From: Pedobacter zeae
Lineage (GTDB): Bacteria > Bacteroidota > Bacteroidia > Sphingobacteriales > Sphingobacteriaceae
DNA: 64,000 nucleotides
NCBI RefSeq assembly: GCF_014196715.1
Contig: NZ_JACIEF010000001.1
Span: 1,346,872-1,410,871, forward strand
Direction: 5' to 3'
The translations under genes were made by a program, and so were the position numbers. A model generated the notes under the pieces. It was not told the DNA's origin. It was given only the letters and a program-made list of their open reading frames with translations, and made no database searches. Below, in pieces: positions 55,550 through 61,988 of the stretch (position 1 is the first letter of the stretch; each line of letters starts with the position of its first letter).

Positions 55550-56983
55550 TTAAAAAGCATCAAACCAAAGTTTGGTGGTTAATAAATCGGCACCCTGGCT
55601 GCTTACCGCGTTTTTATAATTTTGTCCGTTTAATGATTGTTCGGTACCAGGGTAAATAAAACGCACCGGAATTTTACCATTCAGAACGGTATTTACCGAG
55701 GCCGTTAACTGCGGATAATCTAACCTCCGCTGCTCGGCCCAGGCTTCTAAGCCCTGTCCGAATAAGGCGATCCATTTCTGCTGGCCGATCGATTTTTTAT
55801 AGTTGGCTGGGTCGTATTGTACATCAGCTCTACCTAAATAACCCGTAATCTGGTCATTGCCATTTATTCCATATTGCTGTAAAGAAGCGGTAATGGCCTG
55901 TTTATATAAATCTTCTGCATTTTCTGTGGTAAAACCACGGGCGGCTGCTTCTGCCCTGTCAAAAAGTACTTCAGCGTAACTTAAAATTACCGCAGGTGCT
56001 TTCGGATCAAGAAAATAAGCGCCTGGTTTTGAAGAGTTTGCCAAGCCAATGGCACTTGCCTCAGAGTTGGTAGAACCGTTTGGTATCCCTACATAACCTT
56101 GCGGTGGATTTTCAGTTCTACTGGCATAAACGGGTAGCCTTGGATCATTTAAGGAAGCAAGTTTATCTACAATTGTTTTACTGATCCTGTAATCGTTTCG
56201 CGTTTCAAATGAAGCTGCCACTGGGTTTTGCTGAGGTGAAACATCATATTTCAGCGCAGCATTTTCTGAATTACTACCGATATAAGCGCCTCCTTCTGCC
56301 TGTATTTCGTCAATCACCTGTTTGGCTTTAGCCGGATCTTTATCAGCAATCCGCAGGGCAATACGAAGCCTCAGCGAATTGGTAAACTTTTTCCATAGTG
56401 CAATATTATTGCTATAAATTACGTCACCGGCAATCGGCTTTGCTGCAGGATCTAAAGCCGCCTGCGCTGATTTCAAATCGCTTAAAATGCCGTAATAAAC
56501 ATCCTTTTGTTTGTCGTAACCAGGGGTAACAAATTGTTTAATTTTTCCTGCCTGCGAATAGGGGACATCACCATAAGCATCGGTAAGCAGTAAAAATGTC
56601 CATGACCTTAGTACAAGCGCTACAGCTTTATAATTCGGATTGCCCTGCGCATCGCCCAGTTCGATGATTTTATTAAATCCGGCAATACTTTGTGCATAAC
56701 CCGTTGACCATAAAGCTGTAAAACTACTGTTCGAGTAAATGAAGCGATCTTCTTCTGTGTATTGTACTTTGGCCCAATGTTGCACAAAAAGCAGGCTCGA
56801 GTTCATGTTATTGGTTACGCCCCAATAGCTGTCTACTGTGGCTTTGGTTGTTCCGGTAAGCAAATAATCCGGCTGTGCAACTTCGGGTGCATTGGGGTTG
56901 ATGTTCACCTCATCGAGCTCTTTTTTGCATGATGAAAAGGCAATTGCCAGGATGGCCAGTATATAGAGTTTTTTATTTTTCAT
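55550..56983 (-). CDS. SusD/RagB-like lipoprotein (SusD-like_2 type), SAM-riboswitch operon
   Basis: 477 residues, shorter than the PUL SusDs. Lipobox C19 (LAIAFSSCKKELDEVNIN). It matches the SusD-like_2 layout: NINPNAPEVAQPDYLLTGTT near the start, FLLLTDAYGDVPYSQAG, LRLRIALRIADKDPAKAK, and AVILSYAEVLFDRAEAAARG with GLEAWAEQRRLDYP near the end. It lies 11 bp downstream of SusC 56995-60159 and shares its riboswitch leader. Substrate unknown; a methionine or peptide source fits the regulation. No glycosidase is in this operon. Confidence 0.92.
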   Translation of the reverse strand: MKNKKLYILAILAIAFSSCKKELDEVNINPNAPEVAQPDYLLTGTTKATVDSYWGVTNNMNSSLLFVQHWAKVQYTEEDRFIYSNSSFTALWSTGYAQSIAGFNKIIELGDAQGNPNYKAVALVLRSWTFLLLTDAYGDVPYSQAGKIKQFVTPGYDKQKDVYYGILSDLKSAQAALDPAAKPIAGDVIYSNNIALWKKFTNSLRLRIALRIADKDPAKAKQVIDEIQAEGGAYIGSNSENAALKYDVSPQQNPVAASFETRNDYRISKTIVDKLASLNDPRLPVYASRTENPPQGYVGIPNGSTNSEASAIGLANSSKPGAYFLDPKAPAVILSYAEVLFDRAEAAARGFTTENAEDLYKQAITASLQQYGINGNDQITGYLGRADVQYDPANYKKSIGQQKWIALFGQGLEAWAEQRRLDYPQLTASVNTVLNGKIPVRFIYPGTEQSLNGQNYKNAVSSQGADLLTTKLWFDAF

Positions 56984-56994
56984 GATGAGAATAT

Positions 56995-59900
56995 TTAAAA
57001 TTTAACATTCAGGTTGATACCATAACTGCGTGTGCTCGGATTGGATAAACTTTCCAAACCCTGGCCATTACCGATATTGAAGGCTACTTCAGGATCGATA
57101 TCAACCGTATTGCGGTGAATGATCCAAAGGTTACGCCCCACAAGTGATACCGAAACCCCTTGTAAACTTAACGGACGGATCCATTTTGCAGGTAAATTAT
57201 AGCTTAATTTCACCTCACGGAGTTTAACATAAGAAGCACTGAAAATATTGGCTTCGTCTATATTTCTGAAAGATTTGTAATACTGTTGGGCAGGCAATAT
57301 TTTCTCGTTGCGTTTGCCATCGGCAGTTACCCCATCAAAAATAATCCCGTCATCGTACACGGTAACACCTGCCGGAGCAGATCCGTTTACCCTTACGGTA
57401 CCATTTTCTTTTTTGTTATCCGGGTAGTAGTAGGAAATACCGCCATATTCGGCTGCCCTGCCCGGAAGTGTTGATGCCAAAACCCCCGTATAAGTTCCGG
57501 TAGCGTAAGTACCATTGTAAATAGAACCTCCAATGCTGGCATCAATCAAGACACCTAAACTGATTCCTTTATAGGTAAACGTGTTGTAAACTCCACCAAT
57601 CCAATCAGGCGTATATTTCCCTAATACCTGTTTGGTTGGGTTTGTAGCAGGTGCGCCTGTAGCATTAACAATAATGTTTCCGTTAGCATCCCTTAAAAAG
57701 GCTGAGCCGAACAACGATCCATAAGGCTGCCCTACCGTTGCAATCACCTGGGCTGAGTTTGAGGCTACCACATAATTGGTCAGCAATTTTTCAGCATCCA
57801 ACTCAATTACCCTGCTCCTGTTCGCGGCGAAATTGAAATCAATGTCCCAGGTAAATGTTTTTTTGATTGGGGTGATGCCCAATTGTACCTCTACCCCTTT
57901 GTTGTTGATTTTACCGGCATTAAGTAATTTTGAGCTAAAACCCGTACTCTGGCTTACATCGGCAGCTAAAATCTGGTTATAACTATTGGTATTGTAAGCA
58001 CTTAAATCGAAGCGTAATCGCTTATTAAAGAAAACTGCTTCAACGCCCAATTCTGTAGATGTGGTTGTTTCAGGCTTTAAGTTAGGATTTAAGTCGATAG
58101 TGCCGGTGGTCAGCTGAGGATTGCCATAAAACGGCGCGCTGAATACATAAGTATTAATTAAACGGTAAGGATCGGCATCTTTTCCTACTTTCGACCAACC
58201 CCCACGGATTTTTAAATAATTAAGGGCTTCACTTTTAATATCGAATGCTTCGGTAGCCACAAAACTTCCGTTAAATGATGGGTAAAAGTAAGATCTGTTT
58301 TGCGCCGGCAAGGTAGACGACCAATCGTTACGTGCCGTGATGTTGGCAAAAAGGTAATTCCTGAAACCGATCTGCCCTGATGCATAAATACTATACGATT
58401 TTAACCTCGATAGATTATTGGATGAAACCAGGGGATCGCGTGAGTTTTTAAGCGTATAAAGTCCGGCAATGGCCAATTTCGGTGCACTTTGGTCGTTCTG
58501 TTCTATGTATTGCCTGCGGATGTTACCCCCACCCAATAATTCTAAGCTAAAATCATCGTTCAACTGTTTGTTAAAGTTTAAGGTGGCATCGGTATTATTT
58601 TCGCTCACCGTAAAGGCACTTTCGGTATAAGAACCAAAAGGTGTTCCGTTGGTGCCGTAAGCAATGCGGATTTTACGCCTGTCGTTGTAATAATCGGTAC
58701 CCGATCTGAAATTGAAATCAAGGCCATCAATAATTTTATAATTAAGGGCCAAACTACCTATAATGCGGCTGCGGTTTTGCGAAACCGTATTTTCGTAAGC
58801 TACCCAATACGGGTTGCTGTAATAGCTGTTGTTCCAGTTAAAGGTTTTTCCATTTTCATCCAGATAATTTTTCAACTGGTTAATATCAACCTGGCGACCA
58901 AACCAGGTAAACTGCAACATGGTACTGGTTGAACGGGAGCCGCCGGTACCCGGTAAATTGTCGGAATTAAGTTTATTGTAATTTGCATTGGCCGTTAGGC
59001 TTAATTTCGGGGTGATTCTTAAGGTGGTATTCAGTACAAATGAATTTTTCCCCTGCCCTGAATTAGGCACAATACCCACCTGTTTCAGGTTATTGTACGA
59101 AATCCGGTAATCGTATTTTTCTCCTGCATCGGCAACCGATATCCCATTGTTTAAGGAATAACCGGTTTGAAAGAAATCGCGCACATTATCCGGATGTGCA
59201 ATAAACGGAACCGCCACCCCTTTCGAATAAAACTGGGGGATCAGCCTTCCATCCAGTTTGGGGCCCCAGCTCTCATCTACCCCGTCATTTAATCCTTTAC
59301 CCGCACCATCTACGTAACTAAATTTACCTTCAGACCCCTGACCGAAAGCGTTTTGATAAACCGGGAGCGTAAGCAGGGTTTCTAATACCGCATTGGAGTT
59401 GATGGCAATACCCAATCCTTTTTTCGATTTACCTGTTTTGGTTTTAATGAGAATTACCCCCGCTGCAGCCCTCGAGCCATATAATGCAGCTGCATTCGGC
59501 CCCTTTAACACGCTCATCGATTCGATATCTTCCGGGTTGATATCCGAAATGGTATTGGCATAATCCCTTGCACCTGCCGAATTTAACTGTGAATTATCCA
59601 CAGGGATACCATCCACAACAAATAAGGGCTGGTTGTTCCCTGCAATGGAAGTTTCTCCCCTGATCACTACACGTGATGAACCCATGCTTCCCTGGCTGTT
59701 GGTAACCCTTACACCGGCAATTTTCCCGGCCAGTGCATTTACCAGGTTAGATTCTTTTGCTTCAGCTATACTCTGCCCTTTCAATTCCTGTACGGCGTAA
59801 CCTAACGACTTTTTTTCCCTCGAAATGCCCAAAGCAGTAACCACCACCTCATCGAGGGCATTATCGCTTGATTGGAGAACCACTGAAACCGGTCCGTTAT

Positions 59901-60159
59901 TACTGATCGGCATCTCTTGGGTTTTAAAGCCTATATAAGAAAACACCAAAGTGCCCTTTTCTGGTGCACTGATTGAAAAAGCGCCCTTACCATCGGTAAT
60001 GGTAGCTTGTTTGGTTTCTTTTATAATAATAGAAACGCCAGGTAATGTTTCACCATCTGCCGATTTCACCGTTCCGGTAACCGTGGCGTTTTGAGCGAAC
60101 AACTGCTGCGTGATAAAGAGCAGCAGGATAATCACTGTTGATTTAAAATTTGTGAACAT
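56995..60159 (-). CDS. SusC/RagA outer-membrane importer under SAM riboswitch control
   Basis: 1054 residues from the ATG at 60159, followed directly by a signal peptide (MFTNFKSTVIILLLFITQQL, FAQ); the in-frame upstream start is a GTG at 60216 that would put nineteen residues before it. CarboxypepD_reg-like GTVKSADGETLPGVSIIIKE, TonB box DEVVVTALG, plug with LFVVDGIPVDNSQLNSAGAR and MSVLKGPNAAALYGSRAAAG, and a barrel ending YGINLNVKF. The 5' leader, about 430 nt, carries a SAM-I aptamer and terminator. The family predicts TonB-driven import with SusD; the regulation suggests a sulfur or methionine-linked substrate. Confidence 0.94.
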   Translation of the reverse strand: MFTNFKSTVIILLLFITQQLFAQNATVTGTVKSADGETLPGVSIIIKETKQATITDGKGAFSISAPEKGTLVFSYIGFKTQEMPISNNGPVSVVLQSSDNALDEVVVTALGISREKKSLGYAVQELKGQSIAEAKESNLVNALAGKIAGVRVTNSQGSMGSSRVVIRGETSIAGNNQPLFVVDGIPVDNSQLNSAGARDYANTISDINPEDIESMSVLKGPNAAALYGSRAAAGVILIKTKTGKSKKGLGIAINSNAVLETLLTLPVYQNAFGQGSEGKFSYVDGAGKGLNDGVDESWGPKLDGRLIPQFYSKGVAVPFIAHPDNVRDFFQTGYSLNNGISVADAGEKYDYRISYNNLKQVGIVPNSGQGKNSFVLNTTLRITPKLSLTANANYNKLNSDNLPGTGGSRSTSTMLQFTWFGRQVDINQLKNYLDENGKTFNWNNSYYSNPYWVAYENTVSQNRSRIIGSLALNYKIIDGLDFNFRSGTDYYNDRRKIRIAYGTNGTPFGSYTESAFTVSENNTDATLNFNKQLNDDFSLELLGGGNIRRQYIEQNDQSAPKLAIAGLYTLKNSRDPLVSSNNLSRLKSYSIYASGQIGFRNYLFANITARNDWSSTLPAQNRSYFYPSFNGSFVATEAFDIKSEALNYLKIRGGWSKVGKDADPYRLINTYVFSAPFYGNPQLTTGTIDLNPNLKPETTTSTELGVEAVFFNKRLRFDLSAYNTNSYNQILAADVSQSTGFSSKLLNAGKINNKGVEVQLGITPIKKTFTWDIDFNFAANRSRVIELDAEKLLTNYVVASNSAQVIATVGQPYGSLFGSAFLRDANGNIIVNATGAPATNPTKQVLGKYTPDWIGGVYNTFTYKGISLGVLIDASIGGSIYNGTYATGTYTGVLASTLPGRAAEYGGISYYYPDNKKENGTVRVNGSAPAGVTVYDDGIIFDGVTADGKRNEKILPAQQYYKSFRNIDEANIFSASYVKLREVKLSYNLPAKWIRPLSLQGVSVSLVGRNLWIIHRNTVDIDPEVAFNIGNGQGLESLSNPSTRSYGINLNVKF

Positions 60160-60412
60160 GTGTATATAATTAATAATTAGATTATGGATAAAATTTTGGC
60201 AAAACGATTTACTCACGGCTGGAAGCCATGTAATACGAATGAACTAAAAGAAATGGTTAGCTTAAAAGCCTGTTAACCGTATTGATCTAACAGGACATGC
60301 ACATTCGGAAATAGGCTCGAAAATTTGCATTAATGGATTTTAGGTAGTCAGTGTTTTTCATTTCTATGATTTTCTATAAAATATATTTACTGATCAAGCA
60401 TGCATCCGGAGC

Positions 60413-60441
60413 AAAAAAGCACCCCTTTAAATCAGAAGTGC
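60413..60441 (-). terminator. Riboswitch-associated intrinsic terminator
   Basis: Minus strand: GCACTTC (60441-60435) pairs with GGGGTGC (60425-60419) across a TGATTTAAA loop, a 7-bp stem with two G-U pairs, followed by six Ts (60418-60413). It sits about 30 nt downstream of the SAM-I aptamer, as in SAM-OFF switches, where SAM binding favours the terminator. Confidence 0.8.
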
Positions 60442-60473
60442 ATCCTGTATTTTGAAGGATAACGCAAACAACC

Positions 60474-60580
60474 GACTTAACTACCCCGGATTCATCCGGG
60501 ATGGAATTAGCACCATTTCTGAAATCAGATGGTTGCTAAGGTTTCACAGGGCCATTCCCTCCACCTTTCTTGATAAGTAT
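60474..60580 (-). ncRNA. SAM-I (S-box) riboswitch aptamer
   Basis: Minus strand reads ACTTATCAAGAAAGGTGGAG, GGAATGGCCC, TGTGAAACC, TTAGCAACC, ATCTGATTTCAGAAAT, GGTGCTAATTCC and a P4 hairpin CCCGGATGAATCCGGGG, ending in TAGTTAAGT. These match the SAM-I consensus element by element: P1/P2 with the AAGA kink-turn, the GGAGGGA-type strand, GGCCC, UGAAACC, GCAACC, GGUGCUAAUUCC, and a closing P1 (ACTTA/TAAGT pair). It normally shuts off methionine/SAM genes when SAM is high. Here the first gene downstream encodes SusC. Confidence 0.96.
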
Positions 60581-60596
60581 TTTAAAATAACTGGTG

Positions 60597-60604
60597 CAAA
60601 GGTA
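60597..60604 (-). promoter_or_regulatory. -7 promoter box of the SAM-riboswitch transcript
   Basis: TACCTTTG on the minus strand fits the Bacteroidota -7 consensus TAnnTTTG exactly. It lies about 17 bp upstream of the aptamer, so the transcript would begin right at the riboswitch. No clear -33 TTTG. Confidence 0.7.
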
Positions 60605-60676: not shown

Positions 60677-60705
60677 TATATTTGTCGACCAATTTAGTCG
60701 ATTAA
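60677..60705 (+). promoter_or_regulatory. Promoter -7 box with overlapping operator-like sequence, TlpA-like gene
   Basis: TATATTTG (60677-60684) is an exact TAnnTTTG -7 box. Overlapping and following it are GTCGAC (60684-60689) and TTTAGTCGATTAA (60693-60705), the second nearly identical to TTTAGCGATTAAA at the cysE promoter. The start codon is at 60717. A repressor site over the transcription start is likely; the regulator is not known. Confidence 0.6.
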
Positions 60706-60716
60706 CCCACATTACG

Positions 60717-61988
60717 ATGAATTTAAAATCCATATTTACCACCATACTGGCTGTATCAGGCTCCATAACCTTTGCACAACAACAGGCTGTACTGGCTAAT
60801 AATCAACAAACAGCCAAAGAAAAAAAGGCAAAAGCCTTTGTTGCAGCAGGTACCTGGCGCGGGATAGCTAAAGTTAAAGAAGGATTAAATATTCCATTCA
60901 ACTTCGAAATCAATGAAAAAAGCGGACCACAAAAACTCTATTTCCGTAATGCCGAGGAAAGATTTGAAGGTGGCTTAGTAAAACAATCGGGCGATTCCTT
61001 ATTCGTAAAGCTCGATCAGTTTGATAATGAACTGTCATTTGCTATTATAGATTCAGATCATTTAACCGGTGTATTAAGAAAACAGGATAAAACAGGCAAA
61101 CCTTTAAATATTGCAGCCGAACGTAAGAATTATCGCTTCGAAACGCTTAATAAGCCTGCCACAGCAGATTATTCAGGCAGTTATGATGTAGTTTTTAAAT
61201 CGCCTAATGGTCAGGACGAAAAAACAGTAGGCTTATTTAAACAAACAGGCAATAAACTTACCGGAACGTTTTTACGGATAACCGGCGATTCGCGCTACCT
61301 CGAAGGTGTGGTAGAAGGAAATGAATTTCAGCTGTCGAGTTTTATCGGTTCCTCTCCTGCCTATTACAAAGGTACTTTCCAGGCTGATGGCTCAATTAAA
61401 GGTGAAATTTTAAATGCAAGAGGCAGCCAGCCTTTTACCGGCATGAAAAATAAAGATGCTGCCCTACCTGATCCATATCAACTTACCTACTTAAAAAAGG
61501 GATACAAAACACTCGATTTTAGCTTTCCGGATGTTGAGGGCAAAAAGATCTCGCTAAAAGACGAAAAGTACAAGAACAAAGTCGTGATCTTAACCATTAC
61601 CGGCAGCTGGTGCCCTAACTGCGTTGATGAAGCTGGTTTTATGGCTCCATGGTATAAAGCAAACAAAAAGCGCGGGGTAGAAATTATTGCCTTACATTAC
61701 GAACGGTCAACCGAGCCGGCATATGCAAAAAAAATAATGAACCGTTTCCGCGAACGTTTTGGCATCGAATACGACCAGGTTCTGGCCGGTACAGCCGATA
61801 AACAGGTAGTAGCTGAATCGTTGCCTGCGCTCGACTCTTTTTTATCGTTTCCAACCACGATCATTATCGATAAACAGGGTAACGTAGCACAAATCCATAC
61901 AGGCTTTAATGGTCCGGCCACCGGTAAATTTTATGATGAATTTGTAAAAGAATTTAATACAGAGATTGATACGCTGTTGAAGAAATAG
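60717..61988 (+). CDS. Secreted TlpA-like thioredoxin-fold protein
   Basis: 423 residues with a signal peptide (about 1-20, IFTTILAVSGSITFAQQQ). Residues ~40-255 are beta-rich (two similar beta-barrel-like parts: GTWRGIAKVKEGLNIPFNFE, then YSGSYDVVFKSPNGQDEKTV) of unknown family; residues ~260-423 are a TlpA/ResA-like thioredoxin domain with C299-P-N-C302 (ITGSWCPNCVDEAGFM) and the cis-proline region FPTTIIIDKQGNV. It probably acts as a periplasmic thiol oxidoreductase. It is divergent from the SAM-riboswitch SusCD operon; its promoter carries operator-like sequence shared with cysE. Confidence 0.87.
   Translation: MNLKSIFTTILAVSGSITFAQQQAVLANNQQTAKEKKAKAFVAAGTWRGIAKVKEGLNIPFNFEINEKSGPQKLYFRNAEERFEGGLVKQSGDSLFVKLDQFDNELSFAIIDSDHLTGVLRKQDKTGKPLNIAAERKNYRFETLNKPATADYSGSYDVVFKSPNGQDEKTVGLFKQTGNKLTGTFLRITGDSRYLEGVVEGNEFQLSSFIGSSPAYYKGTFQADGSIKGEILNARGSQPFTGMKNKDAALPDPYQLTYLKKGYKTLDFSFPDVEGKKISLKDEKYKNKVVILTITGSWCPNCVDEAGFMAPWYKANKKRGVEIIALHYERSTEPAYAKKIMNRFRERFGIEYDQVLAGTADKQVVAESLPALDSFLSFPTTIIIDKQGNVAQIHTGFNGPATGKFYDEFVKEFNTEIDTLLKK

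Follow-up and report, generated by a model that had tools for sequence, protein, structure and literature searches.

The window analyzed here, a stretch of 64,000 nucleotides of the Pedobacter zeae genome, carries on its minus strand an outer-membrane importer operon, susC-susD. The leader of this operon combines an S-adenosylmethionine (SAM) riboswitch of the SAM-I, or S-box, class with what looks, from its sequence, like a second, cysteine-specific candidate attenuator. The susC gene (56995–60159) encodes a TonB-dependent outer-membrane importer with a CarboxypepD-like domain (PF13715), a plug (PF07715) and a barrel (PF00593), and it scores 647 bits with TIGR04056, for which the cut-off is 368. 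Its start is most likely the ATG at 60159, rather than the GTG at 60216, because the orthologs and the predicted signal peptide begin there. The adjoining susD gene (55550–56983) encodes an outer-membrane lipoprotein lid of the SusD-like_2 type (PF12771, E = 5e-114) with a lipobox-like SSC in its sequence. The SusC domains, the above-cut-off TIGR04056 match and the SusD-family lipoprotein encoded alongside identify a SusC/SusD (SusCD) importer, as the first-pass annotation of this DNA had proposed. A strong hairpin followed by a T-run lies about 50 bases past susD (55500–55469, minus strand) and closes the operon, and the transcript is therefore bicistronic, comprising susC and susD only. As the same annotation had claimed, this operon contains no glycosidase; there is also no STN-type domain among the SusC Pfam matches, and the locus thus does not qualify as a polysaccharide (glycan) utilization locus. 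Control through SusC by a sigma/anti-sigma pair appears unlikely, since none of these matches suggests an STN signaling domain.

The riboswitch was identified with a covariance-model scan of the window, which placed RF00162 at 60579–60474 on the minus strand with 89.3 bits (gathering cut-off, 44.4 bits; E = 6.2e-20 over the window) and aligned the full model, positions 1–108 of 108. This bears out the S-box aptamer that the first-pass annotation had located at 60474–60580, for which it had proposed such a scan. No further Rfam family was found in the leader up to E = 1. Two other predictions for the leader were also confirmed at exactly the positions given: the −7 promoter box TACCTTTG at 60597–60604, which conforms to the Bacteroidota TAnnTTTG motif and is identical across 17 close leaders, and an intrinsic terminator, hereafter T1, at 60441–60413, consisting of the hairpin GCACTTCTGATTTAAAGGGGTGC and a TTTTTT run (8-bp stem, −10.6 kcal/mol). 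Generic sigma-70 and terminator scans performed near background over this region and were discounted in favor of the Bacteroidota −7 box and the comparative evidence.

The expression platform is mutually exclusive with the aptamer's P1 helix. The 3′ strand of P1 together with two further bases (60480–60472) can form 9 bp with 60435–60427, a segment within the 5′ half of T1, and this antiterminator competes with the T1 hairpin. In the predicted fold of the nascent RNA the antiterminator is preferred (−46.2 kcal/mol), and T1 in the longer RNA that includes the T1 3′ arm (−49.8 kcal/mol). Both alternatives were found in all 17 close leaders. The layout thus reads as a standard transcriptional SAM-OFF switch with predicted SAM binding, and regulation of the susC-susD operon by SAM is well supported by these sequence features. 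Bound SAM would keep P1 closed and let T1 form, whereas in its absence the P1 3′ strand would pair with the 5′ part of T1 and transcription would go on.

To survey orthologous loci, we searched genome contigs for SusD relatives and recovered 36 loci. SusC adjoins SusD at each of these whose contig reaches it; two loci are cut inside SusC, leaving 34 that could be evaluated. According to a covariance model for which we used 28 SAM-I sequences from P. zeae and its relatives, SAM-I reads into the SusCD operon at 28 of the 34: 19 Pedobacter-type loci, seven from Mucilaginibacter, and those of Hufsiella and Arcticibacter. Of the remaining six, five (L027, L031, L045, L046 and L047) have no SAM-I, and in L025 the riboswitch lies at the edge of a contig and is encoded on the other strand. 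One could suppose that SAM-I reached SusCD as a duplicate of a met-gene leader and matters little to the physiology, and the element does multiply in the genus: P. zeae has six copies, and relatives have as many as six. Against this stand its retention before the operon in genera as far apart as Pedobacter, Mucilaginibacter, Hufsiella and Arcticibacter, over 60–96% protein identity, and the intact aptamer, promoter box, T1 and antiterminator of the 17 close leaders. We therefore regard a meaningless duplication as very improbable.

We also examined what SAM-I controls elsewhere. The riboswitch was detected in 209 of 248 Bacteroidota genomes. Outside the Pedobacter group, we classified about 67 SAM-I loci by their first genes, which are dominated by metY, metX, metH, homoserine dehydrogenase fusions and cystathionine-type enzymes; none of these loci has SusC after SAM-I. 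By contrast, the SusC studied here follows SAM-I at 19 of the 29 best loci in relatives. The search for SAM-I before SusCD in other Bacteroidota, which the first-pass annotation had suggested, was thus productive at the orthologous loci. In the P. zeae genome itself, the six SAM-I copies precede the window operon, metH-metF, metY-metX-hom, a cysteine desulfurase-TlpA-SusC-SusD string, a DUF4833 gene and, in one case, no clear gene, so that two of them lead into SusCD-containing gene strings.

Several SAM-I loci are worth describing individually. In the second SusCD-containing string (L009 2458–9768; G000:C2:170457 onwards), SAM-I is followed by a cysteine desulfurase-like class-V enzyme, a TlpA-type protein, a 357-base gap and a second SusC/SusD pair; a single transcript may cover the whole string. 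The copy without a clear downstream gene (L007 9170–9267, plus strand; G000:C2:921169–921266) is weaker, at 53.6 bits, and faces away from the SAM-I before the DUF4833 gene; a close pair of this kind recurs in three relatives (G009, G011 and G035). In another family of the class, three of the roughly 67 loci (L231, L233 and L238) have SAM-I, then a TlpA-type protein, then a class-V aminotransferase of about 490 aa resembling cysteine desulfurase. Another of the 67, from a genome of the same class (L225; G266:C1:3986473–3990177), has SAM-I ahead of genes for a TonB-dependent receptor of 822 aa and an amino-acid permease, and is by its gene order an independent case of SAM-I ahead of a predicted outer-membrane importer.

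The first-pass annotation's picture of the leader was incomplete, as it had missed both the elements between T1 and susC and a conserved neighboring gene. Downstream of T1 lies a leader open reading frame (ORF) of 24 codons (60361–60287, minus strand), MKNTDYLKSINANFRAYFRMCMSC, whose C-terminal end is FRMCMSC directly before the stop codon. It is followed by a terminator-like hairpin, T2 (60294–60261; CCTGTTA...TAACAGG-CTTTT), the 5′ arm of which is made by the last Cys codon of the ORF and its stop. All 17 close leaders contain T2, and the stop and last Cys codon lie within its 5′ arm in 16 of them. The ORF is exactly 75 nt, or 24 codons, long in 16 of the 17, with compensating indels around and within it, and ends in FRMR or FRMC followed by a terminal C, or alike. 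Only 5 of 1000 column shuffles matched its amino-acid identity.

Among more distant orthologs, the Cys codons form runs. A leader of this CCC type was found at the same place before SusC in 16 of 17 such orthologs, against 0.05 expected from dinucleotide shuffles, with ends such as MRCCC, MCCCCCSR, NHSCCCCCC, DISCCCCCCNCC and ARCCCCC, each preceding the stop codon. Such leaders also occur at orthologous loci that have no SAM-I, and were found in none of 21 lower-identity SusC homologs. Similarly, orthologs of about 58% identity from another family of the class (n = 5) have RMC mini-leaders of the eight-codon type, namely MKKRMCCR, MKKRMCSK, MKKRMHSC and MKKRMCC. A conserved short ORF with Cys codons directly before its target, as found here, is one of the features expected of a leader-peptide attenuator. 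We propose a cysteine-type attenuator as a new element of this leader, with good comparative support and a predicted function.

The distribution of these leaders suggests that Cys-type control is phylogenetically broader than SAM-I on this SusCD. The simplest history, read from distribution and not from a reconstructed tree, would be that the Cys-type leader is the wider control, to which SAM-I was added in the Sphingobacteriaceae. Scanning whole genomes for the pattern TGYTGYTGYTGYTRA showed enrichment over a reversed control in relatives. Most matches to the three-Cys form in the P. zeae genome were not clean leader ORFs, and only one further clean case emerged, before another SusC of the same genome (L128 and L258; G000:C2:349500–362000), where the leader ORF MMPNLFIFSMQVYPSCCC lies about 240 bases upstream. 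Cys leaders are therefore not confined to orthologs of the window locus. A search of the genome for the RMC..C end immediately before a stop returned the window locus and one other match.

The neighboring gene (60717–61988, plus strand), divergent from the operon, encodes an exported thiol oxidoreductase of the TlpA/AhpC-TSA type (PF00578/PF08534). A gene of this type adjoins SusCD in 27 of the 36 loci, divergently in 16 (Pedobacter-type), upstream in the operon in seven and downstream in four. Most Mucilaginibacter and Hufsiella loci place the TlpA-type gene between SAM-I and SusC, with SusD last. A cysteine desulfurase joins SAM-I, TlpA and SusCD in one string at L009 in the P. zeae genome and at L036, where the order is SAM-I, cysteine desulfurase, TlpA, SusC, SusD. 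We considered whether the riboswitch is shared with the divergent TlpA-type gene and rejected this, as that gene has its own −7 box at 60677–60684. Further along the window, two near-identical Flavo-1 RNAs (RF01705; 62177–62273 and 62583–62679, minus strand; 47.8 and 44.7 bits) lie about 400 bases apart.

We consider it likely that the operon encodes a sulfur-source importer placed behind two serial attenuators, SAM-I and the Cys leader, and switched on when SAM and probably also cysteine are low. In the cysteine branch of this mechanism, scarce charged tRNA-Cys would slow the ribosome at the leader Cys codon, the ribosome would mask the 5′ arm of T2, and transcription would pass T2. The importer would then take up its sulfur source by a TonB-dependent lid mechanism, and the exported TlpA-type oxidoreductase may help to reduce imported Cys-containing or disulfide peptides. 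Several observations weigh against this proposal. The U-run of T2 in the window is short (4 T), the leaders of the window's own clade carry a single terminal Cys codon or at most two, and in Pedobacter alluvionis (L021) the leader ORF stops early, at SQMR, with T2 intact. Beyond the close clade, a search downstream of the poly-Cys ORFs gave no convincing terminator, and those loci would need a different readout, perhaps translational or Rho-dependent. In addition, TlpA-type genes are common beside SusCD pairs in general, and the TlpA link is for this reason weaker than its count.

The window's clade has few Cys codons in its leaders, the ORF of P. alluvionis is broken, and the poly-Cys ORFs elsewhere lack a following terminator, all of which would fit another arrangement. 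In it, SAM-I alone matters, the Cys-rich ORFs either yield a small peptide that binds thiols or metals or aid re-initiation, and T2 is an ordinary pause or processing hairpin. Yet 16 of 17 distant orthologs have poly-Cys ends at one and the same position before SusC, with N-terminal parts that are poorly similar, which is how an attenuator leader behaves and not a functional peptide, and the stop and last Cys codon are held inside the T2 5′ arm in nearly all close leaders. Overall, we judge SAM-I acting on its own to be unlikely.

As for the substrate of the proposed dual-attenuator importer, the first-pass annotation had reasoned that low SAM turns on uptake of a methionine- or sulfur-rich nutrient. 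The identity of the riboswitch, its OFF layout, its control of SusCD and a sulfur-related substrate are all supported. The emphasis on methionine needs revision, since methionine is not the only nutrient concerned and perhaps not the main one; cysteine is at least as likely a substrate class. That the import is sulfur-related is suggested by the combination of SAM-I, the Cys-rich leaders, the TlpA neighbor and the cysteine desulfurase under SAM-I. In a comparison with PDB, the closest solved relative of SusC was BT2264 (E = 5e-138) of Bacteroides thetaiotaomicron, which with BT2263 forms a SusC/SusD complex (PDB 5fq6–5fq8) reported to be solved with peptide (PMC7782687); together with RagAB, this complex represents the peptide-associated SusCD systems. 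SusD matches BT2263 at E = 2e-30, but its best PDB match is a different RagB/SusD protein, 5j5u. The substrate cannot be transferred from BT2263/BT2264 by homology alone. From the sulfur indicators and the peptide reported in the BT2264 complex, our best guess is that peptides containing Cys or disulfides are imported.

SAM-I control could also be genuine if the cargo were not a sulfur source but a cofactor or metal complex that methionine synthesis requires, such as a cobalamin-like compound used by MetH. The metH gene is indeed under another SAM-I in the same genome, and TonB receptors for cofactors are known to be under riboswitch control, as with the cobalamin riboswitch of Flavobacterium psychrophilum (PMC9723704). 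However, cobalamin importers are normally controlled by cobalamin riboswitches, the Cys-rich leaders and the TlpA and cysteine desulfurase partners indicate thiols, and the nearest solved relative of SusC was solved with peptides. Cofactor import is, in our view, improbable.

Known systems resemble parts of this locus. It shares with other SAM-I riboswitches of the transcriptional type, such as those on metH and metY-metX-hom in the same genome, a full-length aptamer, the P1/antiterminator/terminator switch and a promoter directly upstream; it differs in its target, a SusC/SusD outer-membrane importer. The TonB receptors of Bacteroidota that are under cobalamin riboswitches, such as the F. psychrophilum case, likewise combine a metabolite riboswitch with an outer-membrane importer whose presumed role is to restore that metabolite. 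In those systems, the presumed import is itself the riboswitch ligand. The P. zeae switch has the end product SAM as its predicted ligand, and a SusCD pair as its importer. In mycobacteria, short ORFs with consecutive Cys codons have been described as cysteine-responsive attenuators (Canestrari et al. 2020, Mol Microbiol 114:93, cited in PMC13236596). They share with the leaders studied here a short ORF with consecutive Cys codons. The window system belongs to another phylum, is not leaderless, lies downstream of a riboswitch and targets an outer-membrane importer, and its Cys response is predicted. Moreover, the Cys run of the window's clade is reduced to RMCMSC or RMRMPC, and an intrinsic terminator covers the stop codon.

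The closest survey took in Bacteroidaceae as the sole family of this phylum (PMC3766115). The open-access papers that we searched mention neither SAM-I ahead of SusC nor poly-Cys leaders from Bacteroidota, a negative of little weight, with subscription papers and supplements lying outside the search. On balance, we lean towards a tandem AND-gate, in which SAM-I and then a cysteine leader-peptide attenuator govern a dedicated organic-sulfur importer, the Cys leader being wider, probably older and found in several Bacteroidota families, and SAM-I an addition of the Sphingobacteriaceae. SusCD pairs, usually discussed in connection with glycans, rank among the most numerous Bacteroidota transporters, and most of them are without an assigned substrate. 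Here, an RNA leader that names a nutrient class (SAM and probably cysteine) would allow a substrate class to be tested directly across an entire orthologous group, and the poly-Cys leader, as a simple sequence flag, might reveal other sulfur-related importers. If the proposed mechanism is true, it would extend cysteine leader-peptide attenuation to the Bacteroidota and place two attenuators for two linked metabolites within one leader.

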